From a virus: DNA of 45,516 bases. The translations under genes and the position numbers were made by a program. This document shows positions 1-45,516 of the stretch, one piece after another (positions within the stretch are counted from its first letter, which is position 1; the number at the start of each line of letters is the position of its first letter). The stretch spans positions 1 through 45,516 of the IMG/VR virus record IMGVR_UViG_3300034072_000779; one strand, given 5' to 3'. The notes beneath the pieces are model-generated. The model was not told where the DNA came from, searched no databases, and was given only the letters and a program-made list of their open reading frames with translations.

Positions 1-127
1 TCGCCGACCTCTGTGCCCCGACGTGGTTCCCGCGCGGCAAGATGATCTACGTCGAGAGCCGCGAAGAGATCATCAAGCGCATCGGCCGCAGCCCTGACTA
101 CGGCACAGCCGTGATCCTCGCACTGAT
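1..127. repeat. Left copy of 127-bp end overlap (assembly circularisation repeat)
   Basis: Bases 1-127 are identical to 45390-45516. The repeat lies inside the large terminase reading frame and is in frame across the junction, so it is best read as the k-mer overlap of a circular or circularly permuted genome, not as a biological terminal repeat. Its length, 127, equals a common maximum assembler k-mer size, which supports this. A true short direct terminal repeat would normally not sit inside terL. Confidence 0.93.
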
Positions 128-212
128 GAACACGCCGCGGCTCACCGACATCCCCGGTACGCATAACGCTCCGCAGCGCGAGCACAATCCGTACGCCAAC
201 CTGAGAAGGTGA
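1..212 (+). CDS. terL: Terminase large subunit, C-terminal end (continues from window end)
   Basis: This is the last part of the large terminase that begins at 42965. Reading frame starts at base 3 and ends at TGA 210-212. The conserved C-terminal nuclease segment containing SPDYGTAVILAL is here; its Asp is likely the third metal-binding acid of the RuvC-like nuclease. Joined across the circle the precursor is 878 aa: 368 aa of intein and about 510 aa of mature terminase, a normal size for the family. The stop codon overlaps the next gene's ATG (TGATG). A late-motif copy (156-168) lies inside this coding end. Confidence 0.93.
   Translation, partial: ADLCAPTWFPRGKMIYVESREEIIKRIGRSPDYGTAVILALMNTPRLTDIPGTHNAPQREHNPYANLRR
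156..168 (+). promoter_or_regulatory. Late-module motif copy 1 (GGTACGCATAACG)
   Basis: One of five + strand copies of a 12-13 bp motif. This one lies within the 3' end of terL, 43 bp before the ATG of the GNAT-fold gene that opens the portal module. Its conservation and position just ahead of late modules suggest a promoter element or binding site; there is no direct proof of transcription initiation. Confidence 0.5.
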
Positions 213-16400: not shown

Positions 16401-19400
16401 CACAAAGATGCCGGTGGCCGCCACCGTGTTCGGCCCGAAGCTCGGAGCCTTCTACGCGAACCTGATGGGCTCGTCGGGTTACCTGACGATGGACCGCTGG
16501 TGGTCGCGCACCTTCAACCGCTACCGCGGCAACCTGATCGCGCAGCCGACGCGCCCAGGCCTTGATCGTTTCAAGCAGTTGATCGGCAAGCCGGAACTGA
16601 GCGACGACCAGGCTATCGCTGAGACGGTGCCGTATCGCAAGGCCTACGAGGCGCGGAACTACAAGGACGGCACCGAGACCGAGAAGGCGGCGAACACGTT
16701 GTACAAAGCTGCGTTCGAGAACATCGAGGACTCACCGTTCAACGCGACTGATCGCAAGTTCATGGTGCAGGCCGTCAAGTACGCGCAGCAGAATTTGAAA
16801 CGCCGCGGGGCGGAGATGTCGATCGCCGACATCCAGGCCGTTCTGTGGTACTACGAGAAGAGGCTTTATGGAGAACTCGGTGCAAGACAATCCGCAGACG
16901 TCAGCTATGAAGAAGCAGCCCGCCGAGCCGTCGCAGCCCGATCCGGTGATGGTGTTGCCGGAGCAACCATTCCCGAGGGTACCGCTGGAGATGCTGTTGG
17001 CATCCAACCCGGGGACGAGGTCTTCAACGACCCCGCCCCAGGAGCCGAAGCCTTCACCCTCAACCAGTCAGCGATCCCCGAACCCCTCCGTGTAATCGGC
17101 AACGCGCAGCGCGCATCACTGAAGACCGACTTCTCGAAGTCGGGCATCAAGGACATCCTCAAGCGCAGCGACTGGACGATCCTCACGGCCGAGAACCCTG
17201 AAGGCGTGCAGCTCGACGAGGCCGCGAACAAGGCCCGCATGGACGAGCTGCGTGCGCGGTTGAAGGAGATGGGCCTGGAGTTCATCGACGTGCGCGGCAA
17301 GTACGGCAACGACGAGAACTCCATCGTCGTGATCGGCGTGGGCCGCGATCAGGCGATGGCGCTGGGCAAGCAGTTCTTGCAGCAGTCGGTGCTGACCAAC
17401 GCGGGGCTCGTGTTCCGCGATGGCACGATCAAGCCGTCGCGCAAGCTGAACGTACTCGACCGCGCGGCTGACGATTACTACACAGAGCTGCCCGACGGCA
17501 CCAAGTTCTCGATCGAGTTCGACAACCTCGACTTCGACAGCCGCTGGCCGAAGCAGGACGGCCGTGTGGGTGAAGTATCTGTGGCTGGTGTGCACTTCAG
17601 CAAGGAAGAACGCAGCCTGCTCTCTGCGGCGTCTTACGGCCGCGGCGCGAAGGGTGCTGAAGCGGAACGCATCAAGAACGCCGACGACAAGCGGCTCGCG
17701 AAGCGCGTTCACTTCTACGTGAACACCGGCAACGGTGTGCGCGCTGAACGTGATGTCGGCAGCGTCGCGCACGCTACCCGACTCGCGAACCTCTACGACG
17801 CGGACGGCGATCCGCTGGGCCTGTTCCGCCCCTTCGAGATTGTGGAAGGCCCGGACGGCAAGAAGACGGAGCGCAAGCGTGATCTGAACGAGCGGGAGTC
17901 CGCGGTCATCGACGCCGGCTTCTCGGGTTACCTGTCGCGCAACGCGGTCGGCGGCAGCGCTGTCGTGTTCGAGGACGTGAAGGTCACGCCGGTCGGCACG
18001 GAGGCAGATGCGAACGCGATGGTGCAGGGTATCGTGCCGCCTCCGCCGCAGATGACGGAACTCCGCAAGAAGGCGATGGAGATCATGCAGGACCAGCGCA
18101 TGTCTGCGGGCGCACGCCTGCCGATCGAATGGGCGGCCGAGTTCAAGAAGTACGGCTACGACGTCCCGATCGACACGGCCGGCAATGACCCGGTTTACAA
18201 GGACGAGTTGCTGAAGAAGCTCTACCAGGGCGACCAAGCTCGCGGCCAGATCACGTTCGGCAACGTCGCCGAGACGCCGAGCACAATCACGCTGCTGAAG
18301 AACGCGGACCTCTCAACCTTCCTGCACGAGGCCGGGCACTTCTACCTCGAAGTGTTGAACAGCATCGCGACCCAGCCGAACGCGCCGCAGGAGATCGTCG
18401 ACGACATGAACGCGGCTCTCGCTTGGATGGGTGTGAAGGGCGGCCTCGCGCAGTGGAACGCCATGTCCCTCGAAGAGAAGCGACCCTACCACGAGCAGTG
18501 GGCGCGCGGCTTCGAGGCGTACCTGTTCGAGGGCAAGGCACCGAGCGTCGAGCTGCGCGGCGTGTTTTCCCGGTTCAGCGCGTGGCTGAAGAATGTCTAC
18601 CGGCAACTCGCTTCGCTCAACGTCGAACTGACTGACGAAGTGCGCGGCGTGTTCGACCGGATGCTCGCCACCGAAGAGCAGATCAAGGAAGCCGAAGCGC
18701 TGCGCGGATACGCGCCGCTGTTCAAGTCGGCCGAGGAGATGGGCGCGCAGCCTGATGAATGGGCGCGTTATCAGAACCTGCACGCCGACGCCACGGAATC
18801 CGCGAACGAGAAGCTGCAGACCCGCAGCCTGCGCGACATGCGCTACCTCTCCAACGCACGCAGCCGCGCGATCCGCCAATTGCAGAAGGACGTCGAGGCG
18901 AAGCGCAAAGTCGTCGAGGCCGAAGTCAAGGCCGAGGTCAGCCAGCAGCCGATCTACGCTGTGCAGCGGTGGCTCAAGTACGGCGAGATGCCCGACGGCA
19001 CGCAGACCGTCGGCGCCAAGCTCGATCTGAAAGCGCTGAAGGAGATGTACGGTGAAGGCCCGGCCGCACCGTGGCGCTACTTCGCCACCGGCACGAACGG
19101 CCTGGCCGGCAACGAAGGGTTGCACCCGGACGTGGTGGCCGAGATGTTCGGCTTCTCGTCGGGCGACGCGATGGTCCGCCAGATTCTCGCCGCTGATCCG
19201 GAGAACGACGTCGTCGAAGGCATGACCGACCAGCGGATGCTGGAGCGCTATGGCGACGTGCAGAACCCCGCCGCGATTGAGCGTGCCGCGGATGAGGCCG
19301 TGCACAACACGGCCCGCGCCAAGTTCATCGCGACCGAACTCGCGGCTCTGCAGAACGCGATGTCGGTGCGCCAGGACACCGGCCGCACGGTGACCGACAG

Positions 19401-21993
19401 CCGTGGCCGCACGCGCAAGATCACCGACAACGTGCTCACCAAAGCGGCGAAGGACTTCGCCACGACGCTCGTCGAGCGCAAGAAGATCAAGGACATCAAG
19501 CCGGCGCAATTCGCTGCCGCTGAAGGGCGTGCCGCGAAGGCAGCCGAGCGCACCTCGAACTTCACCGAGAAGGTGACCGAGAAGCGCAACCAACTGGTGA
19601 ACCACTACGCGGCCCGCGCTGCGAACGACGCCGTCGACTACATCGAGAAGCAGGTCGCCTACCTACGCGAGGTCGGCAACCGGGAGTCGATCGACCCCGA
19701 GTACCGTGACCAGATCAACGCCATCCTCGAAGGCTACGAGCTTCGCCGCATCACGCAGCGCGAAGAGGCGAAGCGCGCGTCGCTGCTGGAGTGGATCGAG
19801 AGCCAGGAAGCGATGGGCCTCGACCCGGTGATCGACCAGAAGCTGATCGACGCCGCCAACCGCACGAACTACCGCAACCTGCCGCTGGAAGACTTCCGCG
19901 GGCTGGTCGACTCGATCCGCAACATCGAGCACTTGGGTCGCCTCAAGAAGAAGCTGCTCACCGCGAAGGACAACCGCGAGCTGGCCGAAGTCGTAGAGGA
20001 AGTGCGCGCGTCGATCGACGAGAACCACAATCGCGAAGCGAAGGTGCGCATCGAGACGGGCAGGGGTGTTGCGCGCATCGGCAAGATGGCGCGCGGCTTC
20101 GTCGCCATGCACCGCAAGTTCGCCAGCATCGCTCGCGAGATGGACGGCGGCGTAGACGGCGGGTCGATGTGGGAGCGCTTGGTGCGCCCCATGAACGAGG
20201 CCGGTGACAACGAGATCACGATGCGCGCCGAGGCGACCGACAAACTCGCCGGCATCTTCAAGCTCCTCGACGGCATCAAGCTGACCCGCAAGAGCGAAGT
20301 GCTGCCGGGCGTGTCGATGACCCGCGAAGCGCAGATCATGCTCGCGCTCAACTGGGGCAACGAGGGCAACCGGCAGCGCGTCATCGACGGCGGGCTGGAC
20401 GGACGGCGTCGCCTCACCCAGGCCGAGGCCGAGCAGATCGTGTTCAGCCTGTCGAGCAAGGAGTGGGACTTCGTCGAAGCGATGTGGGACTTCGTCGGCA
20501 GTTACCGGCCGATGATCGCCGAGCAGGAGAAGCGCTTGACCGGTGTCGAACCGAAGTGGGTCGAGCCCGCTCCGTTCACGCTGCCCAACGGCCGGCAGAT
20601 CAAGGGCGGCTACTTCCCGGCGAAGTACGACGGCGACCTGTCCACGCGCTCCAACGAACTCGAAGCCGTGACCGACTTGCGCCAGCAGATGCGCGGCGCT
20701 GCGGGCCGCGCGGCCACGCGCAACGGCTACACGAAGGAGCGCTCGCAGGAGGTCAAGGATCGCCCGCTGCGCAAAGACTTCGGCGTCATCATGCAGCACG
20801 TCGGCGAGGTGACTCACCGGCTCGCGTGGCAGGACTGGCTGATCGACGCCCGGCGCGTGCTGAACGCGAGGCCGGTCGATGCTGCGATCCGTGAGTTCTA
20901 CGGGCCGGAGATTCTGCGCGAGATGAAGGAGCACATCAAGGACATCGCAGCCGGTGACCTCGGTGCGCAGTCGGACCTCGACCGCATCCTCGGCCACATT
21001 CGCAGCGGCGTGACGATCGCCGGCATGGGCTGGAACCTCGCGACAGGCCTGATGCAGCCGCTGGGTATCACGCAGTCGACCGTGCGCGTCGGCGCCGACT
21101 GGATGGCGAAGGGGCTCGCGCACTTCGCGGCCAACCCGGTCAAGGCTACGCAGATCGCGCAGGAGAAGTCGAAGTTCATGGCGAGCCGTTCGATCTCGCT
21201 GAACCGCGACCTGAACGACATCCTGAACAAGATCGACAAGGACAAACTCTCCACCGTCGAGAACTCGTACTTCTGGTTCATCTACAAGCTGCAGACGGCG
21301 ATCGACGTGCCGACGTGGTGGGGTGCCTACGAGCGCGCCATCGCCGAGGGCAACGACGAAGCACGTTCGATCGCACTCGCCGACCAGGCCGTCATCGACG
21401 CGCAGGGCGGCGGCACGTTGAAAGATCAGGCGCGCATCCAGCGCGGCGGTGCGGGCCAGAAGCTCTTCACGGCCTTCTACTCGTACTTCAACACGACCTA
21501 CAACCTGGCGGTCGAGCAGGGCCGCACGGCGCGCGTGAAGGGTGGCATGGCGGTGCCGAAGCTCGTGTCCGACTACGCGCTGCTGTTCGTCATCCCGGCG
21601 ATGGCGGGCGCGCTGCTGAAGATGCTGCTGAAGGGTGAGGACTTCGACGACGAAGAGAAGCTCGCACGCAAGCTCGCGGCCGAGCAGTTGAACTACCTGT
21701 TCGGCACGATGGTGCTGACCCGCGAGATCGGCGGCGGCATTGCGGCGGCGCTGGACGGCTTCAACTACAACGGCCCGGCCGCGCTGCGGCTCTTCGGCGA
21801 GATGTCTAAACTAGCCAAACAGGTCGACCAGGGCGAGGTCGACGCTGCGGCGCTGAAGGCCGCGAACAACGTCGCCGGCATCCTGCTGCATTACCCGTCC
21901 GGGCAGGTGCAGCGCACCGTCGAAGGCATGGTCGCGCTGTCCGAAGGCGAGACGGAGAACCCGGCGTCCGTGCTGTTCGGCCCGCCCCGGTGA
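13438..21993 (+). CDS. Giant internal virion/ejection protein (2851 aa, polyvalent type)
   Basis: 2851 aa, almost one fifth of the genome. Analogous in order to T7 gp16, which crosses the inner membrane during DNA entry. Modules seen: two N-terminal YxxLLxEE motifs (IYQGLLAEEE, PYAALLDEEA); hydrophobic segments about residues 150-175 and 235-265; a GNAT-like stretch near 735-755 (VAEERQRQGIGGKLFTLYR); a DUF3293-like segment from about 1244 (DWTILTAENPEG); a VAGVHFSKEERSLL segment near 1382; a zincin-like HEAGH (H1630, E1631, H1634) with a downstream FE near 1692; and a conserved C-terminal region with FYSYFNTTYNLA and a membrane segment near 2710-2735. Such fusions are typical of polyvalent phage proteins, thought to enter the cell with the DNA. 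No lytic transglycosylase motif was clear to me. Confidence 0.88.
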   Translation: MTNIYQGLLAEEEQRMQNNATPNQSSPAAPIQQSSPYAALLDEEAQQATTRRQQVLNAAVRENPDTVAKQVQLSNKSGVPLSVVRDEEAEVAARQRARELETLAAQSPVLARQLQDPKFASLAHDDAENLSLLEQAVRATWGAVRATASGVPALAGGLYGVGAAGFELASRYVGQPLAGRLLPEDIFGRVGEGLRRASGTLANTAAEVASIDKSAGIVERSIYSGFQSLGQNLPPLVAALVTRNPSLALSIMSAGAGGQSYTKAREKGLDPFRSAAYGTTDAAIEAVTEAFPLFKLFNDLGVGTPFVKAFITNQISEQLGEQAATALQDFNEWATLHPERPFTSYLEERPSAALQTAIATVIGSGGQVAILKAVEKATQSLSSMQSGANAAQDGLRQMEGLMTQVEQAQLRTRDLPTLQGFLQESGAEDVYLDPRALQQAGVDVNVLAQTLPSVAEQLAEDGAGTRDFVIPGAELLARLPGTGLEQSLLPHIRMDLESPSAFEAEQQLTEAATFFQQEAERVLQTQQIDDLARQSQDRVEQDLVRQLKEANRFTDDVNTAYAKLVSSFFGTLSSRLTKAGQATTAEEMYQRFALRVNAQSVAGEQQLDQDFSDWQVISQEDDPNPFPEGMKFAVSAGAQGTLEFFATRREAQEWLNQEIEFQKSFRQQQLDQNIPDRPLLREADLEGMMPPERTLVAAENGVEYYAAGEGFYATVDGKEVGFVLPLSEDPVQGFDVTVAEERQRQGIGGKLFTLYRGAHPGAPTGGLTKAGEGMARKTGADLSTLFQSASLRRGTETLKRFGLDPTKKHTTRQVAAALEARQRERYGSIGRDDRSPETARKIAKWMVEEVLFEMQNPGMSGVGWYSTKFQAALDTMAEAFPELATDKNARDLMTALIAVTSDGQKVNENFLMAMEVYGEFKDSGKFASKRGHSRDSSIKGNLEKIQKLHDELGAEGMRKFLMREITIAEINAMARIAGEKTTSDYTADTKMPVAATVFGPKLGAFYANLMGSSGYLTMDRWWSRTFNRYRGNLIAQPTRPGLDRFKQLIGKPELSDDQAIAETVPYRKAYEARNYKDGTETEKAANTLYKAAFENIEDSPFNATDRKFMVQAVKYAQQNLKRRGAEMSIADIQAVLWYYEKRLYGELGARQSADVSYEEAARRAVAARSGDGVAGATIPEGTAGDAVGIQPGDEVFNDPAPGAEAFTLNQSAIPEPLRVIGNAQRASLKTDFSKSGIKDILKRSDWTILTAENPEGVQLDEAANKARMDELRARLKEMGLEFIDVRGKYGNDENSIVVIGVGRDQAMALGKQFLQQSVLTNAGLVFRDGTIKPSRKLNVLDRAADDYYTELPDGTKFSIEFDNLDFDSRWPKQDGRVGEVSVAGVHFSKEERSLLSAASYGRGAKGAEAERIKNADDKRLAKRVHFYVNTGNGVRAERDVGSVAHATRLANLYDADGDPLGLFRPFEIVEGPDGKKTERKRDLNERESAVIDAGFSGYLSRNAVGGSAVVFEDVKVTPVGTEADANAMVQGIVPPPPQMTELRKKAMEIMQDQRMSAGARLPIEWAAEFKKYGYDVPIDTAGNDPVYKDELLKKLYQGDQARGQITFGNVAETPSTITLLKNADLSTFLHEAGHFYLEVLNSIATQPNAPQEIVDDMNAALAWMGVKGGLAQWNAMSLEEKRPYHEQWARGFEAYLFEGKAPSVELRGVFSRFSAWLKNVYRQLASLNVELTDEVRGVFDRMLATEEQIKEAEALRGYAPLFKSAEEMGAQPDEWARYQNLHADATESANEKLQTRSLRDMRYLSNARSRAIRQLQKDVEAKRKVVEAEVKAEVSQQPIYAVQRWLKYGEMPDGTQTVGAKLDLKALKEMYGEGPAAPWRYFATGTNGLAGNEGLHPDVVAEMFGFSSGDAMVRQILAADPENDVVEGMTDQRMLERYGDVQNPAAIERAADEAVHNTARAKFIATELAALQNAMSVRQDTGRTVTDSRGRTRKITDNVLTKAAKDFATTLVERKKIKDIKPAQFAAAEGRAAKAAERTSNFTEKVTEKRNQLVNHYAARAANDAVDYIEKQVAYLREVGNRESIDPEYRDQINAILEGYELRRITQREEAKRASLLEWIESQEAMGLDPVIDQKLIDAANRTNYRNLPLEDFRGLVDSIRNIEHLGRLKKKLLTAKDNRELAEVVEEVRASIDENHNREAKVRIETGRGVARIGKMARGFVAMHRKFASIAREMDGGVDGGSMWERLVRPMNEAGDNEITMRAEATDKLAGIFKLLDGIKLTRKSEVLPGVSMTREAQIMLALNWGNEGNRQRVIDGGLDGRRRLTQAEAEQIVFSLSSKEWDFVEAMWDFVGSYRPMIAEQEKRLTGVEPKWVEPAPFTLPNGRQIKGGYFPAKYDGDLSTRSNELEAVTDLRQQMRGAAGRAATRNGYTKERSQEVKDRPLRKDFGVIMQHVGEVTHRLAWQDWLIDARRVLNARPVDAAIREFYGPEILREMKEHIKDIAAGDLGAQSDLDRILGHIRSGVTIAGMGWNLATGLMQPLGITQSTVRVGADWMAKGLAHFAANPVKATQIAQEKSKFMASRSISLNRDLNDILNKIDKDKLSTVENSYFWFIYKLQTAIDVPTWWGAYERAIAEGNDEARSIALADQAVIDAQGGGTLKDQARIQRGGAGQKLFTAFYSYFNTTYNLAVEQGRTARVKGGMAVPKLVSDYALLFVIPAMAGALLKMLLKGEDFDDEEKLARKLAAEQLNYLFGTMVLTREIGGGIAAALDGFNYNGPAALRLFGEMSKLAKQVDQGEVDAAALKAANNVAGILLHYPSGQVQRTVEGMVALSEGETENPASVLFGPPR

Positions 21994-22047: not shown

Positions 22048-23451
22048 ATGACCCTACCCGTCACCACCCGTCGAGATGGTCCCTACTCCTGCAATGGTGT
22101 GCTGCAGGACTTTGACTTCAATTTCAAAGTCTTCGCCGAGAGCGACATCCAGGTCATCCTCACGGACTCCGATGCCGCGGAGACGACCCTCACGATCACG
22201 ACCGGCTACACGGTCGCGCTCAACGCCGACCAGGAGAGCAACCCTGGCGGCACGATCACGACGGTCGCGACCTACGCTACCGGCAACAAGATCACGATCA
22301 TCGGTGCGCTTGATTACGGCCAGCCGACGCAACTCACGAATCGCGGCGGCTTCTTCCCGAAGGTGATCGAGCGCGCGATGGACCGCCTCGGCATCCTGAT
22401 CCAGCAGTTGAAGGAGCAGGTCGATCGCAGCGTGAAGGTCGACGCCTCCAGCACCACAGACCCTGACACGTTGATCGACGACCTGGTTGCCGCTGCTGCT
22501 GACGCGGAAGCCGCAGCGACCGCCGCGGCTGCCAGCTACGACGCCTTCGACGACCGCTACCTCGGCAGCAAGACCAGCGACCCGGCACTCGACAATGACG
22601 GTGCCGCGCTCATCACGGGCGCGCTGTACTGGAACTCGGTGGCCGAAGAGATTCGCGTCTACAACGGCACGTCGTGGGAAGCCATCACTGAGACGTCGAA
22701 CTACTCGCCGGAGAGCTTCTCGGGTGACGGTTCGGATGTCACCTTCACCCTGACGAACCCGCCGGTCGGAGCGGCCAACCTGTTCGTGTACCTCAGCGGT
22801 GTACGGCAAGTGCCGACGACCGACTACACGCTCTCGGGCAGCACGCTCACTTTCACCTCTGCACCGCCGCTGGGCACGAACAACATCTTCACCCTGGCCG
22901 CGAGCACGCAGGACATCGGTGTGCCGAGTGACGACACGGTGAGCACGGCGAAGCTGCAGGACGGTGCGGTGACCGCAAGCAAACTAGGCGCCGGGTTAGC
23001 TGTGCCGACAGGCGCAATCCTCGACTTTGCCGGAACGTCCGCACCTACCGGCTATCTAGGGTGCGACGGTTCAAACATCAGCCGCGCAACTTATGCCGCA
23101 CTGTTCAGTGCGATCGGCACGACTTGGGGGGCGGGCGACGGCAGCACGACGTTCACCTTGCCCGATTTTCGACGTCGTGTTGCTGTCGGCTCTGGCGGCA
23201 CTGGCACCGCTACGCTCGGAAATGCGGTGGGCAACACTGGTGGCGCGGAGACGCACACGCTGGTCACAGCCGAAATGCCGTCGCACACGCACCCGAATGG
23301 CGGCTCGGCGACTCTCGCTAATCCGAGCGCAGGCGCGGCGTCGTCCAATGCTGTTCAGGATGATGGCACGACAACCGGCTCGACTGGTGGAGACGGTGCG
23401 CACAACAACATGCAACCGTCCGCTGTCGTGTTGAAAATCATCAAGACGTAA
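22048..23451 (+). CDS. Tail fibre with N-terminal virion-binding domain and collar domain
   Basis: 467 aa. Residues 1-130 match the pattern of podoviral fibre N-termini: FKVFAESDIQVIL, GGTITTV, QPTQLTNRGGFFPKVIERAMDRLGILIQQLKEQVDRSVK; this part attaches to the tail. A short Ala-rich coiled coil follows (about 150-170), then repeats ending in a phage tail collar domain from about residue 325 (PTGAILDFAGTSAPTGYLGCDG, and PSHTHPNGG near 410), with the usual NNMQPSAVVLKIIK end. Recognises the host surface. No reverse transcriptase or template repeat is present, so it is not diversified as in BPP-1. Confidence 0.9.
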   Translation: MTLPVTTRRDGPYSCNGVLQDFDFNFKVFAESDIQVILTDSDAAETTLTITTGYTVALNADQESNPGGTITTVATYATGNKITIIGALDYGQPTQLTNRGGFFPKVIERAMDRLGILIQQLKEQVDRSVKVDASSTTDPDTLIDDLVAAAADAEAAATAAAASYDAFDDRYLGSKTSDPALDNDGAALITGALYWNSVAEEIRVYNGTSWEAITETSNYSPESFSGDGSDVTFTLTNPPVGAANLFVYLSGVRQVPTTDYTLSGSTLTFTSAPPLGTNNIFTLAASTQDIGVPSDDTVSTAKLQDGAVTASKLGAGLAVPTGAILDFAGTSAPTGYLGCDGSNISRATYAALFSAIGTTWGAGDGSTTFTLPDFRRRVAVGSGGTGTATLGNAVGNTGGAETHTLVTAEMPSHTHPNGGSATLANPSAGAASSNAVQDDGTTTGSTGGDGAHNNMQPSAVVLKIIKT

Positions 23452-26629: not shown

Positions 26630-27129
26630 CGGTGCTTCTCCAAGTAAGCCGCAGCTTTGCGTAGAAGCGCTGGATCGTCCCTGAACTTCCCAAGAGCCGT
26701 GTTGCACGTCTGACACAGAATGCCTCGTGGCGCGCCCGTGCGATGGCAGTGGTCCGCGTGCACCTGCTGCTGTTTTAACTGACCGAGGTGCGCGAGGCAT
26801 ATAGCACAGCGGTGTCTTTGCTGCCGGAGCGCGGCCGCGAACTTGTCCGCAGAAAACCCCGTAGACTTCTCGCGTCTGCGTTCGGCCAACCGGTTGCGGT
26901 TACGTTCTTTATATTCGCGCTGCTTCTGCATTAGCACATCTCGGTTCTCAGCGTAGTACCTTCTGTTCGCTGCGATCGCTTTCTCACGGTTCGCCTTGTG
27001 GTAAACCTTTTGGGCCGATCGGACGCATGTTTTGCATATCGTGGTTCTGCCGTCCCTCGTCGCGCAGTTACGGTGGAAACCGGTCAATAGAAAACGCTTG
27101 TCGCATCTGTTGCACTTTTTGGTAATCAC
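26626..27129 (-). CDS. Endonuclease VII-type HNH nuclease
   Basis: 167 aa. N-terminal Cys motif (CNRC ... CKTC, residues 6-35) as in many phage HNH proteins, a charged helical linker of repeated Arg/Asn/Glu residues, and a C-terminal endonuclease VII domain: CAIC, HADHCHRTGAPRGILCQTCNTALGKFRDD. The DHCH residues are the catalytic core and the four Cys bind zinc. Either a Holliday-junction resolvase that debranches DNA before packaging, as T4 gp49, or a free-standing homing endonuclease. Its DNA is AT-richer than the flanking helicase gene, which favours recent acquisition. Confidence 0.88.
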   Translation of the reverse strand: MITKKCNRCDKRFLLTGFHRNCATRDGRTTICKTCVRSAQKVYHKANREKAIAANRRYYAENRDVLMQKQREYKERNRNRLAERRREKSTGFSADKFAAALRQQRHRCAICLAHLGQLKQQQVHADHCHRTGAPRGILCQTCNTALGKFRDDPALLRKAAAYLEKHR

Positions 27130-28574
27130 GCGTAGCCCCTTCGTTTCATCGCTTCAAGCAGCACCTCTTGCACCTCGCGCTTGGACTCGATGCGGTCGAG
27201 CACTACTTCATCAACGGTGTCTCGTGCCAGGATTCGATACACCCACACGTTACGATCGTGCCCGGCCTGCTTCTGCCGCATCGGGCCTATCCGCTCGAGG
27301 ATTTGCTGGTGCTCCTCGAGGTTCCAGTTGACGCTGAAGTAGACAAGGATGTTGCCGCCGTCTTGAAGGTTAAGACCGTGGCCTGCCGATGCAGGATGTG
27401 CAAAGAGGATCGGAACCTTCCCGGCGTTCCAGTCTCGAATTGTTGCTGGATCAGCATCCAGTTGCCGACCTTTAGGAAACGCTCTCTGTAACCGGGCCAG
27501 GTCACTTTTGAAATGGTAGGCCACCAGAACGGGGGCGCCGTTCGCCTCCGCCACCACAGATTCGAGCGCTTGTATCTTCTCATCGTGCACCTCTTTCCAG
27601 TTGCCCTTGTCATCGGTATAGACGGCACCGTTCGCAAACTGCAAACACTTCATCGTACGGGCCGCTGCGTTGAACGCCTCGATGTCGTGCTCTTCCAACT
27701 GCGTGAACATCTCTTTCTCCATCTCGCGGTACTTCACGCGAACCGCGGCCGGCAAGTCGACGTACACGTTGCGCACGATCGGCTCGTCGAGATCGAACCA
27801 GTCCTTCGCGTCGACCGTCAGACACAGGTCGCGCAGCCTGTCGTGGATTTCCTGTTCAGCAAACGGGAGCAGCTTCTGCGACACTGCGTACCGCTGGTCC
27901 GGGTCGGCGTTGGGGTCGCGAACGTAAGCGAACCAGCGTTGCTCGAAAGCGCTGAAAGTTCGGCCCAGCCGCTGACCTGCGTCGAGGAACCACAACTGCC
28001 CCCACAGGTCAATCAGACTGTTCGGGGCTGGCGTTCCGGTTAGTTGGATGAACCGCTTGATCTTGGTGTGCGCGACTCTGCCTAGAGCTTTCGCCCGAAC
28101 GCCGCCCCCGGCCGTGCCTTTCGGCGTGCCGTCCTTCTTGTAACCCCCCAGCCGAAACGACTTCAACCGCGTGGCCTCGTCAGCGACGAAAGTCTTGAAA
28201 GGCCAGCGCTCGCCGAAGTGCTCGACCAGCCACGGGATGTTCTCGTAGTTCACCGTGAACACGTTCGCGTCGTGGCGCAACGCGAGTCGCCGCTCATCAA
28301 CACCGCCGACGATCGGCATGACGTTGACGTTCGTCAGGTGCGACCACTTGCGCGCTTCCTCCGGCCACGTCGTGCGGGCCACGCGCAGCGGTGCGGCGAT
28401 CAGCGCCGGGTAGACGTCCTCGACCATGCTCAGGTCTTCGAGCGCGGTGAGCGTGCTCACGGTCTTGCCCATACCCATGCCAGCCCAGGCAGCGCAACGT
28501 GGCAGCGCGTGGAGGTGCTCACGGATCAACTGCTGGTAGGGGTGCGGGGTGAAGTCTTTACGCGAGGAGGTCAT
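27126..28574 (-). CDS. SNF2-family DNA helicase/translocase
   Basis: 482 aa. Walker A GMGMGKT at residues 32-38 after the PYQQ Q-motif-like region, a DEAT box (FVADEATRLKS) near 140, a TGTPAPNSLIDLWGQLWFLD motif III segment, and a C-terminal helicase domain with HPASAGHGLNLQDGGN and QILERIGPMRQ (motifs V and VI; here ERIGPMRQ where QxxGRxxR is usual). Single polypeptide of the phage SNF2 type, thought to remodel DNA or replication forks. Overlaps the VRR-NUC gene upstream by 17 bp, a pairing seen in many phages. Confidence 0.92.
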   Translation of the reverse strand: MTSSRKDFTPHPYQQLIREHLHALPRCAAWAGMGMGKTVSTLTALEDLSMVEDVYPALIAAPLRVARTTWPEEARKWSHLTNVNVMPIVGGVDERRLALRHDANVFTVNYENIPWLVEHFGERWPFKTFVADEATRLKSFRLGGYKKDGTPKGTAGGGVRAKALGRVAHTKIKRFIQLTGTPAPNSLIDLWGQLWFLDAGQRLGRTFSAFEQRWFAYVRDPNADPDQRYAVSQKLLPFAEQEIHDRLRDLCLTVDAKDWFDLDEPIVRNVYVDLPAAVRVKYREMEKEMFTQLEEHDIEAFNAAARTMKCLQFANGAVYTDDKGNWKEVHDEKIQALESVVAEANGAPVLVAYHFKSDLARLQRAFPKGRQLDADPATIRDWNAGKVPILFAHPASAGHGLNLQDGGNILVYFSVNWNLEEHQQILERIGPMRQKQAGHDRNVWVYRILARDTVDEVVLDRIESKREVQEVLLEAMKRRGYA

Positions 28575-33012: not shown

Positions 33013-33222
33013 CTACTCCTTCTCGTTGTTGAATAAACCAGGGCACTCGCGCCGGGCCAGATTGATTGCGGCCTCGACTGCTTGTGTTCTTGCACGGCTC
33101 TCGCCGGGCGGGTGCTGCCTCTCGGTGCGCGCCGCGTTGATGAGCGCTTCGCGCACCATCCTCGGGAAGAGCCGCGCCACCGGCTTCGCCTTCGGGTTGG
33201 TGAAACTCGGGACGTCGATCAT
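33013..33222 (-). CDS. Small basic hypothetical protein
   Basis: 69 aa, basic (many Arg/Lys) and helical: MIDVPSFTNPKAKPVARLFPRMVREALINAARTERQ... The ATGA overlap with DUF2800 upstream and short spacing to the SSB gene place it in the recombination/replication block. Possibly a DNA-binding accessory. No family recognised. Confidence 0.65.
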   Translation of the reverse strand: MIDVPSFTNPKAKPVARLFPRMVREALINAARTERQHPPGESRARTQAVEAAINLARRECPGLFNNEKE

Positions 33223-34448
33223 GCGATCACCTCGAATGAGTCGATGACGGGTTTGACCTCGATCGCCGGGCGCTTGTCCGTTGCCGGCGCGACGCTGGGC
33301 TTCGGCTCGCTACGCGTGATGAGCGTCTCCAGCTTCTGCCACTGCTTCGGCTTGATCTCGCCAGCCTTCACGAGCTTCTCGGCCGTCGTCGGGCTGATGA
33401 GCTTCATGTCGTAGGCTTGCTCGACCTTCAGCCGCACGGTCTTGCGCAGATACTCCTCGGCCTCGGTAGCGTCCGACCACGCACGCGCACCGGCACGGCC
33501 CTGCACCAGCTTGTAGCCGGGCACCGGGGTGCCGGCCAGCAGTCGGCGTTCGACCTCGGCGCGCACGGCCTTGCACCAGTCTTCGATCAGGTCGATCGCG
33601 GCCATCTTGCGGGCGAGGTCGGCGTCGTCCTTGCTGCCGACTTCGAGGTCGGTCACGTCGAGGTTATCGAGGCTCGCGCCGACGTCCTGCTCGACCTTCG
33701 CGGACAGCGCAGGGCAGGTCGCTTTCGCCTTGCAGAAGCGGCACTGCTTCTCGCCGGGGTTGAGGTCTGCCTGCTCTTGCGAGCACGCCCTAGCGGCTTT
33801 CTCGGCGCGCAACCCGAACTCCTGCAGCACCTCGATCGTGCAGTCCCACTCGCTCGGCGCGCTGGTGAGGCGCGGCTGGTGGATCACCATGCGCACGCGC
33901 TTGGGCTCGACGCCGAGCGGTGCCACGAGTTCGAGAGCGCCGAGCGCGTAGAGCATGAGCTGCTCGTTCTCGAACGCGTCGACCTCGACACCGCGCCCGA
34001 ACTTCAGGTCGTGCACCTGCAGCTCCTCGCCGCCGTCGGTGATGATGATCGCGTCAGCCGTGCCGGTCGCGCCTTCCTCGCCCGTGATGTGTCCGATCGG
34101 CACCTGCTGCTCGACGAGGAGGTCGACCGGGAGCAGGCCGAACTCGGGCGCCTGGCACTCGCCCGGCCCCGTGTAGGACCGGATGTTGTCGAGATACACC
34201 TGCACGCCTTCCGCCATGTCGGTTGTGACCTCGAACGTCTCGTGAGTGCTGACCTCGACGCGCCGGCCGATGTAGGCTGAAGCGGGCCTGCCTTCGGTCA
34301 GCGCCATCGCGGCCACAGCGTGCGCAGCCGTGCCTTCCTTCGAGTAGGCGTTGCTGTTGTCAGGCTTGTCGGCTTCGAGCACTACGCTGCCCGCACATCG
34401 CATCCAGCGGTGCGCGCCGGAGGGAGACAACTTTGCGTGGTAGGTCAT
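33219..34448 (-). CDS. DUF2800 protein, Cas4/RecB-like nuclease
   Basis: 409 aa, full length for the family. N-terminal SPSGAHRWMRCAGSVVLE and SKEGTAAHAVAAMAL are the CRISPR-Cas4/RecB-nuclease-like opening; GTADAIII...VHDLKFGRGVEVDAFEN gives the D and the xxK of the PD-(D/E)XK core. A Cys cluster, CRFCKAKATCPAL near residue 240, with the early Cys at 18, could bind an iron-sulfur cluster or zinc. Predicted ssDNA exonuclease for recombination. It commonly pairs with the Enc34-type SSB, as here. Confidence 0.92.
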   Translation of the reverse strand: MTYHAKLSPSGAHRWMRCAGSVVLEADKPDNSNAYSKEGTAAHAVAAMALTEGRPASAYIGRRVEVSTHETFEVTTDMAEGVQVYLDNIRSYTGPGECQAPEFGLLPVDLLVEQQVPIGHITGEEGATGTADAIIITDGGEELQVHDLKFGRGVEVDAFENEQLMLYALGALELVAPLGVEPKRVRMVIHQPRLTSAPSEWDCTIEVLQEFGLRAEKAARACSQEQADLNPGEKQCRFCKAKATCPALSAKVEQDVGASLDNLDVTDLEVGSKDDADLARKMAAIDLIEDWCKAVRAEVERRLLAGTPVPGYKLVQGRAGARAWSDATEAEEYLRKTVRLKVEQAYDMKLISPTTAEKLVKAGEIKPKQWQKLETLITRSEPKPSVAPATDKRPAIEVKPVIDSFEVIA

Positions 34449-40445: not shown

Positions 40446-40494
40446 AGGGTGGGGTTGGTTGAAGAGCAACTTGAAGAAAATAACAGGAGGGAAG

Positions 40495-40731
40495 ATGCAA
40501 AAAACTGTGGGAATAAACGAACGAGGCCGAAGGGTCGGCGAGTCGCACCCGAAGGCCCGACTCACGGACCACGAGGTCGATCTGCTGTTCGAGTTGTACG
40601 AGGGTGGCATGACGATCGTGGAGATCGCCAGGAAGTTCGAGCTGCGCAAGAGCACGGTCAACGACATCCTCAAAGGCCGTCGTCGAACCGAGCACGCGGT
40701 GCGCTGGAAAGTGGTACGCATAACGAACTGA
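40495..40731 (+). CDS. Small helix-turn-helix protein before terminase
   Basis: 78 aa from ATG 40495 with a near-perfect AGGAGG 4 bases upstream; longer in-frame starts lack this. Residues about 22-60 (ARLTDHEVDLLFELYEGGMTIVEIARKFELRKSTVNDILKGRRR) form a resolvase/sigma-region-4-like helix-turn-helix. It could be a late gene activator binding the TGCAACAC repeats or the GGTACGCATAAC motif, one copy of which lies inside its own 3' end. That role is inference. Confidence 0.78.
   Translation: MQKTVGINERGRRVGESHPKARLTDHEVDLLFELYEGGMTIVEIARKFELRKSTVNDILKGRRRTEHAVRWKVVRITN
40713..40725 (+). promoter_or_regulatory. Late-module motif copy 5 (GGTACGCATAACG)
   Basis: Perfect copy inside the last codons of the HTH gene, 26 bp before the terminase small subunit ATG. 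It would head the packaging unit (TerS to TerL). Confidence 0.55.
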
Positions 40732-40751
40732 AGTTGCGGAACAATCCACGC

Positions 40752-41159
40752 ATGGCACGTCCCTCGAAATACGATCCGGCCTTCTGCGAGCGCGTTGTCG
40801 AACTCGGCAAGCAAGGCAAGAGCAAGGCGCAGATCGCTGCCGACCTTGATGTGCATCGCGAAACGATCGATGAGTGGGCGAAAGTACACCCCGAGTTTTC
40901 CGACGCTGTCTTACGCGCGAGACTCCATGCGCAAGCATGGTGGGAAGCCGAGGTGCAGAAGGGCATATGGTCGCGTGAGTTCAACGCAGCGGCATGGGCG
41001 AAGAGCATGAGCGCACGCTTCCCAGGTGAGTACAGCGATCGCTCGAAGCTCGAACTCACTGGCAAAGACGGCGGAGCCGTGAAGATCGAAGACGGCACCG
41101 CACCCGCGAAGCTCGCTGCGATCCTTGCCGCAGCACAGGAGCGCAAGGAACTCGCGTGA
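40752..41159 (+). CDS. terS: Terminase small subunit
   Basis: 135 aa from ATG 40752 (MARPSKYDPAFCERVVELGKQGKSKAQIAADLDVHRETIDEWAKVHPEF), an N-terminal helix-turn-helix typical of small terminase proteins that bind the packaging site. The middle AWWEAEVQKGIWSREFNAAAWAKSMSARFPGEYSDR and the tail KLELTGKDGGAVKIE are also typical of this group. Found three genes before TerL. Longer upstream frames overlap the HTH gene and are not supported. Confidence 0.92.
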   Translation: MARPSKYDPAFCERVVELGKQGKSKAQIAADLDVHRETIDEWAKVHPEFSDAVLRARLHAQAWWEAEVQKGIWSREFNAAAWAKSMSARFPGEYSDRSKLELTGKDGGAVKIEDGTAPAKLAAILAAAQERKELA

Positions 41160-41599
41160 CGTACCGAGTGCGCCGTGCGGACATCACGGACGCACTGGTC
41201 GTGCAGTGCATACGCTTGTTGATCGACGACTGTTTCCCACCGGGCACACTCGCTGACAACGCAAGGACGCCGAAGGACGGCGTGTGGTGGCTCGTGTGGC
41301 GCGGCTCCGAGGCTGTAGCGTTCACCGGCATCAAGGAGAGCACGGTTTACCCTGGCAACGGGTACATAGCACTGCAGGGCGTCGTACCGAAACACCGAGG
41401 GCAGCAGCTACAGCTCCGCATGATCAGGGTAGCTCAACGTTATGCGCAGTCTCAAGGATGGGCAGAGCTGATCACTGAAACGATCCACGACAACGCACGC
41501 AGCGGCAACACCATGATCCGAGCCGGCTTCAAGATGTTCGCACCTGTTCACCCTTGGAACAACGCGCCAGTGTGCTACTGGAGAAAGGTCGTGCAGTGA
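41156..41599 (+). CDS. GNAT-family acetyltransferase
   Basis: 147 aa from GTG (GTGA overlap). VRRADITDALVV start, core GYIALQGVVPKHRGQQLQLRMIRVAQRYAQSQGWAELITETIHDNARSGNTMIRAGFKMF: the RGQQLQ replaces the usual R-G-x-G-x-G/A acetyl-CoA loop, so acetyl-CoA binding may be altered. GNATs next to terminase genes are found in a number of podoviruses; substrate unknown. Confidence 0.82.
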   Translation: MTYRVRRADITDALVVQCIRLLIDDCFPPGTLADNARTPKDGVWWLVWRGSEAVAFTGIKESTVYPGNGYIALQGVVPKHRGQQLQLRMIRVAQRYAQSQGWAELITETIHDNARSGNTMIRAGFKMFAPVHPWNNAPVCYWRKVVQ

Positions 41600-42753
41600 T
41601 CGACCCTCGACTCAAAGAGTGGGCTACGCCGAAGCAGTGCGAGTACATCGACAAGGTCAACGAACTCGGCAGCCATAAGAAAGCTGCGAGGCACTTCGGC
41701 GTCAGATCACAGACTGTCGACGAGGTCGTCAAGGTCGTCAAGCGCAAGGCCGCACGCGCAGGCTACGCGCCCGAGGCCGACATGCACCGCGCGACGGTTG
41801 CACCGTTCGTCGTCAAAGGCACGAGCACGCTCTACGACAAAGACGGCAACATGGCCGCGCAGTGGGTCAAGACCACGGTCGATCGCGAGCAGGTCGAGCG
41901 GGCCGTGCGTGCTGCGGTCGATGCGCTGATGCTCGATGTGCCACGAACGAATCCGCTGCCCTCACCCAAGTCGACACTCGCTGACCTGTGCAATCTCTAC
42001 ACGATCACCGACTACCACGTCGGGATGCGAGCATGGGCGCCGGAGACAGGCGAGGATTGGGACTTGGACATCGCAGAGCGCGTGCTGCTCTCCGCGTTCA
42101 CGCACGCAGTCAAGAACTCACCGAAAGCAGGTACCGCAGTCGTCAACCAGTTGGGTGACTTCCTGCACTTCGATTCGCTGTCACCAGTGACACCGATGTC
42201 AGGCCACCTGCTCGATGCCGACTCGCGATACGCGAAGGTGATTCAGGTGGCGACACGGTTGCTCCGACGCATCATCACGATGGCGCTGGAGACGCACGAG
42301 CACGTCGTCGTGCTGCTCGCCGAGGGCAACCACGACACCGCATCGAGCGTGTGGCTGCGCCACCTCTTCGGCCTGCTCTACGAGAACGAGCCGCGCGTGA
42401 AGGTCATCGACAGCGAGTTGCCGTACTACGTGCACCAGCACGGCAAGACGATGCTCGCCTTCCATCACGGCCACCTCGCGAAGAACGCACAACTGCCGCT
42501 GCTCTTCGCGGCTCGCTTCCCCGAGGTGTGGGGCACGAGCACGAAGCGCTACGTGCACGTCGGCCATTGGCACCACGTCGAGGAGAAGGAGCACGCCGGC
42601 ATGAAGGTCGTGCAGCACGCGACCCTCGCAGCAGCCGACGCCTACGCATCGCGGCACGGCTACCTCTCGCAGCGCGAGTTGACGGTCATCACCTACCACA
42701 AGCAGTTCGGCCAGGTCGCACGCACCACGGTGTGCCCTGAGATGTTCGAGTAA
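41596..42753 (+). CDS. HTH-metallophosphoesterase
   Basis: 385 aa from GTG 41596 (GTGA overlap, GAGAAAGG upstream). N-terminal helix-turn-helix (TPKQCEYIDKVNELGSHKKAARHFGVRSQTVDEVV) then a calcineurin-type phosphoesterase with all blocks: TDYHVG (D139, H141), QLGDFLH, EGNHD (G244-D247), FHHGH and GHWHH. Encoded between TerS and TerL, as in several podoviruses; it may process DNA or nucleotides during packaging. The fusion with HTH suggests it acts on DNA. Confidence 0.88.
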   Translation: MIDPRLKEWATPKQCEYIDKVNELGSHKKAARHFGVRSQTVDEVVKVVKRKAARAGYAPEADMHRATVAPFVVKGTSTLYDKDGNMAAQWVKTTVDREQVERAVRAAVDALMLDVPRTNPLPSPKSTLADLCNLYTITDYHVGMRAWAPETGEDWDLDIAERVLLSAFTHAVKNSPKAGTAVVNQLGDFLHFDSLSPVTPMSGHLLDADSRYAKVIQVATRLLRRIITMALETHEHVVVLLAEGNHDTASSVWLRHLFGLLYENEPRVKVIDSELPYYVHQHGKTMLAFHHGHLAKNAQLPLLFAARFPEVWGTSTKRYVHVGHWHHVEEKEHAGMKVVQHATLAAADAYASRHGYLSQRELTVITYHKQFGQVARTTVCPEMFE

Positions 42754-42770: not shown

Positions 42771-42968
42771 ATGAACACGTTTCTCTTGGTGGCGATGCTG
42801 GTATCCGCGCACGGCTACGAGATGATCGGTGCGGCTCCCGCGAAGACGCAGGCCGAGTGCGAGGCCGTTCGACAGGCCATCCTCTCGGACACGTACGGCA
42901 AGATGGTGCCGGGGCAGCAGTTCGTCGTCTCGTGCGTGCCGATCATCACTGCGGGCTCGGGTGTGTGA
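42771..42968 (+). CDS. Small exported or membrane-linked protein
   Basis: 65 aa. Short hydrophobic start (MNTFLLVAMLVSAHG) that could be a signal or anchor, then CEAVRQAILSDTYG and FVVSCVPI with two Cys suited to a disulfide in the periplasm. Precedes TerL and overlaps its GTG start (GTGTGA). AAAGGGCATGAC upstream provides a modest ribosome site. Unknown function. Confidence 0.68.
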   Translation: MNTFLLVAMLVSAHGYEMIGAAPAKTQAECEAVRQAILSDTYGKMVPGQQFVVSCVPIITAGSGV

Positions 42969-45516
42969 CGTATACCGCAGCGCAAATCGCGGAACTGCTG
43001 CCCTACCTGACGGAAGACGAGAAGCGCACAGTCAACCGCATCCTCGCAGTGGCGCCGGTATGGGCACCGCTGCCGGGGCCGCAGACCGCGGCGTACTACG
43101 CAACGGCTGACGTCGTCGGGTACGGCGGCGCGGCCGGTGGTGGAAAAGGCTTAGGTACCGATACCGAGATCGCCACGCCGCGCGGGTGGACGACGATGGG
43201 CGACGTGCAGCCGGGCGACAAGGTCTTCGACGAACAGGGCGAGCCGTGCAACGTCTTGGCCGTCAGCGAGGTACATAACCGACCGTGCTATCGCCTGACG
43301 TTCGACGACGACACACAGGTCGTCACCGACGACATGCACAGGTGGTTGACCTACGACTCGAAAGAACTCGCCGCACTCACGAGGCGCGATCCTGAGTGGC
43401 GCGCGGCTCGCAGGGCTAGACGACCGTCGAATGCGAAGGGCAACAAGTCCGCGGCGTTCGTCGCAGCGATCAGCAAAGCCAATGCAACACGGGTCGCTAC
43501 CCAGCCCGCGCCGACAGGTACCGTGCGCACCACGCCGCAGATATGCGACACGGTCAAGGTAAGAGGGCGAGCCAACCACGCCGTGCCTGTAACGCGACCG
43601 TTGTTCCTTCCCAGCGCGGACCTGCCGATCCCGCCTTACGTGCTCGGCGTGTGGCTTGGCGATGGTTCGCAAAACAGTGGCAGGGTTGCGGGCATAGACG
43701 ATGAGGTGTGGCATTGCGTAGAGGCGCACGGCTATAAGGTGTCTCACCATAAGGCGAAGGTGTCGCACTGCGTTCTTGGCTTGCAGACACAGCTACGAGC
43801 GGCGGGCCTGCTCGACAACAAGCACGTACCAGAAGCGTACATGCACGCCTCCATCCCGCAACGCCTGGCCCTGCTGCAGGGCCTTATGGACACGGACGGG
43901 CACGCTGCAGAGGACGGAGGCTGCGAGTTCGTCAACACGCGAAAGCACCTGTCTGAAGCTGTCTACGACTTGGTGGTGAGCCTCGGCGTGAAGGCGACGA
44001 TACGCGAGGGCCTCGCGAAGTTGAACGGCAGGGACTGCGGCTCGAAGTGGTCGGTGCGTTTCACCACGAACCTGCCGGTGTTTCGCCTCCCGCGCAAGGT
44101 GGCGCGCTTGAAGCAGCGGACCCGGCGGACGCAGAAGATGCGCTACATCGTGGCGTGCGAGCCCGTCCCTAGCGTCCCTACGAAGTGCATCGAGGTGGAC
44201 AGCCCTTCTCGGCTCTTCCTGATAACCCGAGCGCTGATCCCTACCCACAACAGCGATCTCGGCATCGGCAAGGCACTGACACAGCACCAGAGGAGCGCGA
44301 TCTTCCGACGTGAGGCCACACAGCTCACCGGCATCATCGACAGGCTGGCCGAGATACTCGGGGATCGTGACGGCTACAACGGGCAGGAGCGCATCTGGCG
44401 CGCTGCCGGCCCGCGCAAGGTGCAGCTTGAGTTCGGCTCGGTGCCGAACGCAGGAGACGAGCGCAAGTATCAGGGACGACCGAAGGACTTCCTGATGCTC
44501 GACGAGACGACGAACTTCCTGGAGCAGCAGGTCCGCTTCCTGATGGGTTGGGTGCGAACCACTGACCCGAAGCAGCGCTGCCAAGTGTTCATGCCTTTCA
44601 ACCCGCCGACGAACGCGGAAGGCCGGTGGGTGATCCCGTTCTTCGCACCGTGGCTGGATAAGAACCATCCGGTACCCGCAGCACCGGGCGAGGAACGCTA
44701 CTTCGTGGTGATGGATGGCGTCGAGCGTGAGTGGTATGACGGCACGCCGTTCACGTACAAGGGCGAACTCATCACGCCGCAGTCGCGCACCTTCATCGCG
44801 TCACGCGTGACCGATAACCCATTCCTAGTTGGGACAGGCTATATGGCGACACTGCAAGCACTACCCGAACCACTGCGCAGCCAGATGCTGTATGGCGACT
44901 TCACTGCCGGCATGGAGGACTCACCGTGGCAGGTGATCCCGACGGCCTGGGTCGAGGAGGCGATGCGCCGATGGGAGAAGAAGGTCACCAAGCCGCGCAT
45001 GGACTCGATGGGCATCGACGTCGCGCGGGGAGGGCAGGACAACACAGTCATCGCCAAGAGGCACGGCGACTGGTTCGATGAGTTGCTCGCGTACCCCGCA
45101 ACGCAGACACCGGACGGCCCGACGGTGGCCGCGCTCGCACTGGCCAACCGCCGGGACAAGGCGCCGATACACATCGACGTCATCGGTGTCGGTGCGAGCC
45201 CGTACGACTTCCTTCGCGCCGCGCCTGCACAGGTGATCGGTGTGAACTTCGCCAACAGCGCGAGCGAGTCGGACAAGTCGGGCACGCTGCAGTTCGCGAA
45301 CATGCGGGCGCAGTGTTGGTGGAAGTTGCGCGAAGCGCTGGACCCGGCCAACAACCGCGCGATCGCGCTGCCGCCTGACAGCCGGCTACTCGCCGACCTC
45401 TGTGCCCCGACGTGGTTCCCGCGCGGCAAGATGATCTACGTCGAGAGCCGCGAAGAGATCATCAAGCGCATCGGCCGCAGCCCTGACTACGGCACAGCCG
45501 TGATCCTCGCACTGAT
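42965..45516 (+). CDS. terL: Terminase large subunit precursor interrupted by an intein (runs into position 1)
   Basis: Frame from GTG 42965 through the window end and on to 212. The N-terminal extein ends GYGGAAGGGK (Walker A lysine 61); the intein occupies 43148-44251; then SDLGIGKALTQHQRS completes the P-loop. Walker B is DFLMLDE (near precursor residue 508); the nuclease begins GIDVARGGQDNTV (near 682) with IHIDVIGVGAS further on. The mature protein of about 510 aa is the ATP-driven packaging motor and headful or site-specific nuclease. GTG overlaps the preceding stop; no ATG fits. The P-loop is split, so ATP hydrolysis should be impossible before splicing. Confidence 0.94.
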   Translation, partial: MTYTAAQIAELLPYLTEDEKRTVNRILAVAPVWAPLPGPQTAAYYATADVVGYGGAAGGGKGLGTDTEIATPRGWTTMGDVQPGDKVFDEQGEPCNVLAVSEVHNRPCYRLTFDDDTQVVTDDMHRWLTYDSKELAALTRRDPEWRAARRARRPSNAKGNKSAAFVAAISKANATRVATQPAPTGTVRTTPQICDTVKVRGRANHAVPVTRPLFLPSADLPIPPYVLGVWLGDGSQNSGRVAGIDDEVWHCVEAHGYKVSHHKAKVSHCVLGLQTQLRAAGLLDNKHVPEAYMHASIPQRLALLQGLMDTDGHAAEDGGCEFVNTRKHLSEAVYDLVVSLGVKATIREGLAKLNGRDCGSKWSVRFTTNLPVFRLPRKVARLKQRTRRTQKMRYIVACEPVPSVPTKCIEVDSPSRLFLITRALIPTHNSDLGIGKALTQHQRSAIFRREATQLTGIIDRLAEILGDRDGYNGQERIWRAAGPRKVQLEFGSVPNAGDERKYQGRPKDFLMLDETTNFLEQQVRFLMGWVRTTDPKQRCQVFMPFNPPTNAEGRWVIPFFAPWLDKNHPVPAAPGEERYFVVMDGVEREWYDGTPFTYKGELITPQSRTFIASRVTDNPFLVGTGYMATLQALPEPLRSQMLYGDFTAGMEDSPWQVIPTAWVEEAMRRWEKKVTKPRMDSMGIDVARGGQDNTVIAKRHGDWFDELLAYPATQTPDGPTVAALALANRRDKAPIHIDVIGVGASPYDFLRAAPAQVIGVNFANSASESDKSGTLQFANMRAQCWWKLREALDPANNRAIALPPDSRLLADLCAPTWFPRGKMIYVESREEIIKRIGRSPDYGTAVILAL
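43148..44251 (+). mobile_element. Class 3-type intein with LAGLIDADG endonuclease in TerL
   Basis: 368 aa. Starts with Gly, not Cys/Ser: GLGTDTEIATPRGWTTMGDVQPGD (block A). Block B is TDDMHRWLT with H64 and W66. Block F has C347 (TKCIEVDSPSRLFLI). Block G is PTHN with T366, H367 and N368, followed by Ser +1. W66-C347-T366 is the triplet that defines class 3 inteins, which lack the N-terminal nucleophile and use the block F Cys. Two LAGLIDADG motifs, VLGVWLGDG (165-173) and LLQGLMDTDG (242-251), mark a homing endonuclease. Flanking joins GGGK/S are the terminase P-loop. Confidence 0.9.
45390..45516. repeat. Right copy of 127-bp end overlap
   Basis: Identical to 1-127 and part of the same TerL frame. 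See the left copy: closes the genome to a circle of about 45,389 bp. Confidence 0.93.

Follow-up and report, generated by a model that had tools for sequence, protein, structure and literature searches.

A LAGLIDADG-bearing class 3 intein, almost certainly of the homing type, at the large terminase P-loop of a BPP-1-like phage

The terminase large subunit (TerL) of the phage described here is almost certainly interrupted by a full-length class 3 intein of the homing type, which lies at the classic P-loop site of a BPP-1-like terminase, between the Lys and the Ser/Thr of the motif. We analyzed the IMG/VR virus record IMGVR_UViG_3300034072_000779 from position 1 to 45,516; these 45,516 nt, the whole record, are the window referred to below. 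We infer that the intein copy in the window both splices and cleaves. A preliminary description of the same DNA had proposed a class 3 intein with an endonuclease inside the terminase ATP-binding loop, and that proposal is borne out by sequence, profile, structural and comparative tests.

Since the record carries an exact 127-bp direct terminal repeat (positions 1-127 and 45390-45516), it is a circular phage genome with a unit of 45,389 bp. The GTG start codon of terL, at position 42965, shares a GTGA with the stop of the small ORF that precedes it. Its N-extein (42965-43147, plus strand) encodes 61 amino acids ending in ...GYGGAAGGGK and was delimited by blastp against the N termini of intein-free TerLs. 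The C-extein occupies 44252-45516 on the plus strand, beginning with Ser+1, and continues after circularization over positions 1-212 (plus strand), the first 127 bases of which repeat the last 127 of the record. Because the repeat closes the circle, TerL is complete and ends at position 212, giving a precursor of 878 aa and a spliced protein of 510 aa; truncation of the gene at the window end was thus ruled out. The 421 aa of the C-extein encoded up to the window end match PHROG terminases phrog_979 (2e-24) and phrog_2 (7e-22). In tblastn searches, the C-extein shows 63.8% identity with Limnohabitans phage DC33, 62.6% with phage zth2-2, 55.8% with Bbp25 of Bordetella phage BPP-1, and about 55% with Caulobacter Rauchvirus-like phages. 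Judged by the sequence of its large terminase, the host phage of the intein is BPP-1-like (Rauchvirus-related).

The intein itself lies at 43148-44251 on the plus strand. These 1104 nt make 368 codons without a stop, in frame with the flanks GYGGAAGGGK and SDLGIGKALTQ, and the protein reads across the junctions as ...GYGGAAGGGK, then GLGTDTEIATPRGW...TKCIEVDSPSRLFLITRALIPTHN, then SDLGIGKALTQ. The two halves of the Hint domain cover about residues 1-72 and 333-368, with a linker and the endonuclease between them. Within the Walker A motif of TerL, the intein separates the Lys from the Ser (GGAAGGGK, intein, S). The motif is therefore interrupted after its Lys until splicing occurs, in agreement with the earlier suggestion that the ATP-binding loop is intact only in the spliced protein, and Ser+1, the splicing nucleophile, doubles as the Ser of the Walker A motif. 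We found 29 intein-free TerL relatives in which this bond is unbroken, from six named phages (L034-L039) and 23 IMG/VR contigs (L046-L068); at the exact position of the window intein they read GG[AS]AGGGK joined directly to T or S. The IMG/VR count is 23 of 24 TerL relatives, the remaining contig (L069) being without this region, and one of the 23 (L050) starts inside the motif and displays only AGGGK-S. The 23 nearest TerLs checked at the junction, with 52-73% identity, are all intein-free. Homologous insertions at the same Lys-Ser/Thr bond were found in eleven IMG/VR contigs (L002-L012) and in a Methylobacillus MAG contig (L070). Since both empty and occupied alleles place the same bond, the intein boundary is fixed, and the coordinates and insertion point first proposed from the reading frame prove exact.

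Class 3 inteins are recognized by a signature of Trp at B:12, Cys at F:4, and Thr at G:5 (PMC5222942; PMC7664689). The window intein has all three, on the plus strand: block B (DDMHRWL) holds the catalytic H64 (43337-43339) and W66 (43343-43345), block F (TKCIEVDS) holds the nucleophile C347 (44186-44188), and block G consists of T366, H367, and N368 (44243-44251) followed by Ser+1. W66, H64, C347, T366, H367, and N368 do not change across the 24 distinct inteins aligned. The C terminus is PTHN with Ser at +1, in line with the His-Asn end and the Cys, Ser, or Thr at +1 of class 3 inteins. Residue 1, in contrast, varies: it is Gly here and G, A, L, M, C, D, or P among the 24 inteins. The numbering of Gly1, W66, C347, and T366 given in the preliminary description is correct throughout. 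H64, C347, and T366 correspond to the H65, C124, and T143 triad reported for MchDnaB1 (PMC7664689). The best solved matches by phmmer are the class 3 DnaB inteins of Mycobacterium smegmatis (6bs8, 5e-22) and M. chimaera (6rix, 4e-22). A profile search, the check proposed earlier, gave 2e-43 for 6bs8 and 5e-43 for 6rix, compared to 0.19 for a DnaE intein and 2e-14 (6e-4 by phmmer) for the class 1 intein gp41-1 in 6riz, a variant engineered with a WCT motif; wild-type gp41-1 (6qaz) scored 1e-11 by profile and 0.012 by phmmer. An AlphaFold model of the intein (pLDDT 89, pTM 0.85) comprises a Hint domain and a LAGLIDADG endonuclease; its fold matches PI-SceI over the full length, and 6bs8 and 6rix over the splicing domain with a target TM of 0.85-0.89. 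The class 3 profile match of 2e-43 together with the pLDDT of 89 excludes a chance origin.

We also considered whether the element could belong to class 1, with its N terminus elsewhere and a Cys or Ser as its real first residue. The probability of this is close to nil, and the assignment was rejected: nothing spoke for it, the sequence around the junction (...AAGGGKGLGTDTEIAT...) contains neither Cys nor Ser, the 29 empty-site relatives and the same-site inteins fix the boundary, and the WCT signature is complete. Alignment with the empty sites puts neither Cys nor Ser at the true first position, in keeping with the non-nucleophilic start that had been noted.

Splicing of the class 3 intein would proceed as follows. 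TerL would be translated as the 878-aa precursor, and C347 in block F, helped by H64 and T366, would attack the Lys-Gly1 bond directly. The N-extein would then move from C347 to Ser+1, Asn368 would cyclize, and an acyl shift would restore GGAAGGGKS, leaving a TerL of 510 aa whose ATP site is functional.

Both LAGLIDADG motifs of the endonuclease are readable. The first, at 43634-43669 (plus strand), ends in the ...VLGVWLGDGS region and reads LGVWLGDGS, with Asp172 at 43661-43663; the second, at 43877-43900 (plus strand, LQGLMDTDG region), reads LLQGLMDTDGH, with Asp248 at 43889-43891 and Asp250 at 43895-43897. The acidic residues are retained across the inteins (D172 and D248 in 23 of 24 each, D250 in 24 of 24), and the intein matches PF14528 with an E value of 6.9e-7. 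With the PI-SceI fold match, these results support the endonuclease inferred earlier from the two motifs. The LAGLIDADG domain would cut intein-free terL alleles at the empty site, and the intein would therefore spread by the gene conversion that follows cleavage.

The distribution of the intein is patchy, and the TerLs nearest to that of the window (up to 73% identity) are empty. Inteins that are 51-58% identical to the window copy lie in TerLs that are only 30-62% identical; in L010, intein identity is 57% and extein identity 41%. Intein and extein similarity are thus uncoupled, indicating mobility, so that the patchy occurrence and this uncoupling in relatives agree with the proposal that the intein may move. 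In a trio of relatives (L004, L005, and L007), dN/dS in the endonuclease region is about 0.1, and dS is lower in the intein (0.18-0.31) than in the extein (0.44-0.49), the pattern expected if exchange of the inteins postdates that of the gene around them. These observations on relatives are indirect signs of present or past endonuclease activity. The searches turned up no close relative of the copy in the window, and selection on its own endonuclease was therefore not measurable. In the phage collection, 736 records match the intein, all below 60% identity. Base composition was uninformative as a sign of recent import, since GC and GC3 of the intein equal those of the host gene.

The same composition is consistent with long residence, and endonuclease decay is a common end of homing cycles. 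The intein might accordingly be a class 3 element that still splices, with an endonuclease that is inactive or has no target left, and that is kept only because exact loss is rare. The empty close relatives of the extein would fit this as well. We regard such a state as unlikely, although it is the most credible of the alternatives, because the acidic residues are retained in both LAGLIDADG motifs, strong purifying selection acts on the endonuclease of the relatives L004, L005, and L007, and the window copy has no frameshift or stop. An intein with a functional endonuclease remains the preferred reading.

A further possibility is that splicing is regulated; the preliminary description had raised the idea that packaging could depend on the splicing rate or on the redox state of C347. 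In MsmDnaBi1, a class 3 P-loop intein, oxidation forms a Cys48-Cys118 disulfide that blocks splicing (PMC6195587). By phmmer alignment, Cys47 of the window intein (43286-43288, plus strand) corresponds to Cys48 of MsmDnaBi1, the redox partner of the catalytic Cys118, and the position is Cys in 19 of 24 relatives. By analogy, the element could be a redox- or metal-gated intein in which a C47-C347 disulfide halts splicing and gates packaging until the cell is reducing. We consider this reading improbable. The catalytic Cys is present in any class 3 intein, MsmDnaBi1 requires Cys48 for the splicing reaction itself, so that the position may be conserved for structural reasons, and the sporadic occurrence of the intein speaks against a required switch. 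Moreover, C47 is replaced by Thr or Ala in three of nine same-site inteins aligned (L008, L010, and L012); a disulfide gate is possible in the window intein, but for this reason would not be general across the same-site inteins. Less probable still is a true packaging checkpoint, in which a C47-C347 disulfide or a metal would hold TerL as an ATPase-dead precursor under oxidation and delay packaging.

Class 3 P-loop inteins of TerL have well-described precedents. Among mycobacteriophage proteins, TerL hosts inteins most often (Kelley et al. 2016, PMC5050341). The TerL1-a inteins of these phages lie between the P-loop Lys and Thr, with classes 1 and 3 reported; splicing has been demonstrated in the laboratory for five terminase inteins and cleavage of intein-free alleles for two, and regulatory roles have already been proposed (PMC5050341). 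The window intein occupies the same Lys-Ser/Thr site of TerL as the TerL1-a group. Both the kind of element and its site are thus already documented, and the window intein adds a divergent representative. The TerL intein of JeTaime (L044), which we read as an example at the K-T bond, shares the W-C-T signature and a LAGLIDADG endonuclease and is 36% identical over its full length, but it belongs to another terminase lineage and host and has Ala1 and Thr+1. The inteins of Clavibacter phage CMP1 (TerL, L042) and Stenotrophomonas phage SOVA965 (terminase, L043) are class 3 as well and sit at a GK-T or GK-S bond, although their annotation says terminase only and identity is about 37%. CMP1, like JeTaime, thus has a class 3 intein at the K-T bond of TerL. 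Closest are the same-site TerL inteins of L002-L012 and the Methylobacillus MAG contig L070, all class 3 and 367-373 aa long, with 51-58% intein identity; they differ in having mostly Thr+1 and an extein identity of 30-62% that does not parallel intein identity. MsmDnaBi1 (6bs8) and MchDnaB1 (6rix) have the WCT triplet and the Cys-His-Thr triad in common with the window intein (PMC6195587; PMC7664689), and MsmDnaBi1 is likewise a P-loop insertion with Ser+1; both, however, are mini-inteins without an endonuclease and reside in a replicative helicase. As a separate observation, the TerL of Aphanizomenon phage CL131 (L040) has a much more divergent insertion (26%) at the same GGGK motif, with an unusual N-terminal stretch and HLW in block B.

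The mechanism adds nothing beyond what is already described. Class 3 P-loop TerL inteins now extend to the BPP-1-like terminase lineage, and this family, in which some alleles are occupied and others empty, allows the invasion of an essential packaging motor to be studied.

It had been suggested that simple intein searches would miss an intein starting with Gly. Indeed, TIGR01445 (intein N-terminal) and PF14890 (intein splicing) gave no match to the intein protein at E values up to 0.1, while a class 1 control, the N-half of NpuDnaE, matched them with 57 and 23 bits, respectively, which shows that the models work. The intein protein was flagged only by LAGLIDADG models, by weak NCBIfam matches to other proteins that contain inteins, and by PHROG terminase profiles. 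Inteins of this type are thus overlooked by these standard models.

In at least six contigs met among the relatives (L079:2689-5920, L082:2689-5965, and L025:1782-5076; also L026, L030, L031, and L080), including those of Thalassobius and Paradonghicola, two overlapping ORFs in different reading frames share a class 3 intein located at the GK-T P-loop bond of a GpA-type terminase. The first ORF encodes a 99-aa IntN ending in ...DDPPGGPDDEGDC before the stop; the second has an ATG 44 nt ahead of this stop and encodes the LAGLIDADG domain, IntC, and the C-extein. Diverged loci of several genera, with many synonymous differences between them, share the position of the break, which makes a sequencing error unlikely. 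These are candidates for a naturally split class 3 intein with a retained endonuclease or for programmed frameshifting. Split class 3 inteins have been described as very rare, AceL NrdHF being the first reported (PMC7891396).

In the rest of the phage genome, head-tail adaptor, head, and tail genes run from the window start. Upstream of terL is a small-terminase-like ORF (40449-41159), and the interval between the two terminase genes encodes a GNAT-like acetyltransferase (41156-41599) and a protein resembling DNA repair exonucleases (phrog_704, 41554-42753; E value, 1e-124). Two genes are on the strand opposite to the structural genes: a SNF2-related helicase (27126-28574, minus strand) and a DUF2800/PD-(D/E)XK nuclease (33219-34448, minus strand; 3.6e-86). 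A single 2851-aa ORF spans 13438-21993; its initial part matches the uncharacterized phrog_9880, and its product is possibly an internal virion protein. A tail collar/fiber gene follows at 22048-23448; the terminase of the phage is related to that of BPP-1, a phage with a diversity-generating retroelement.
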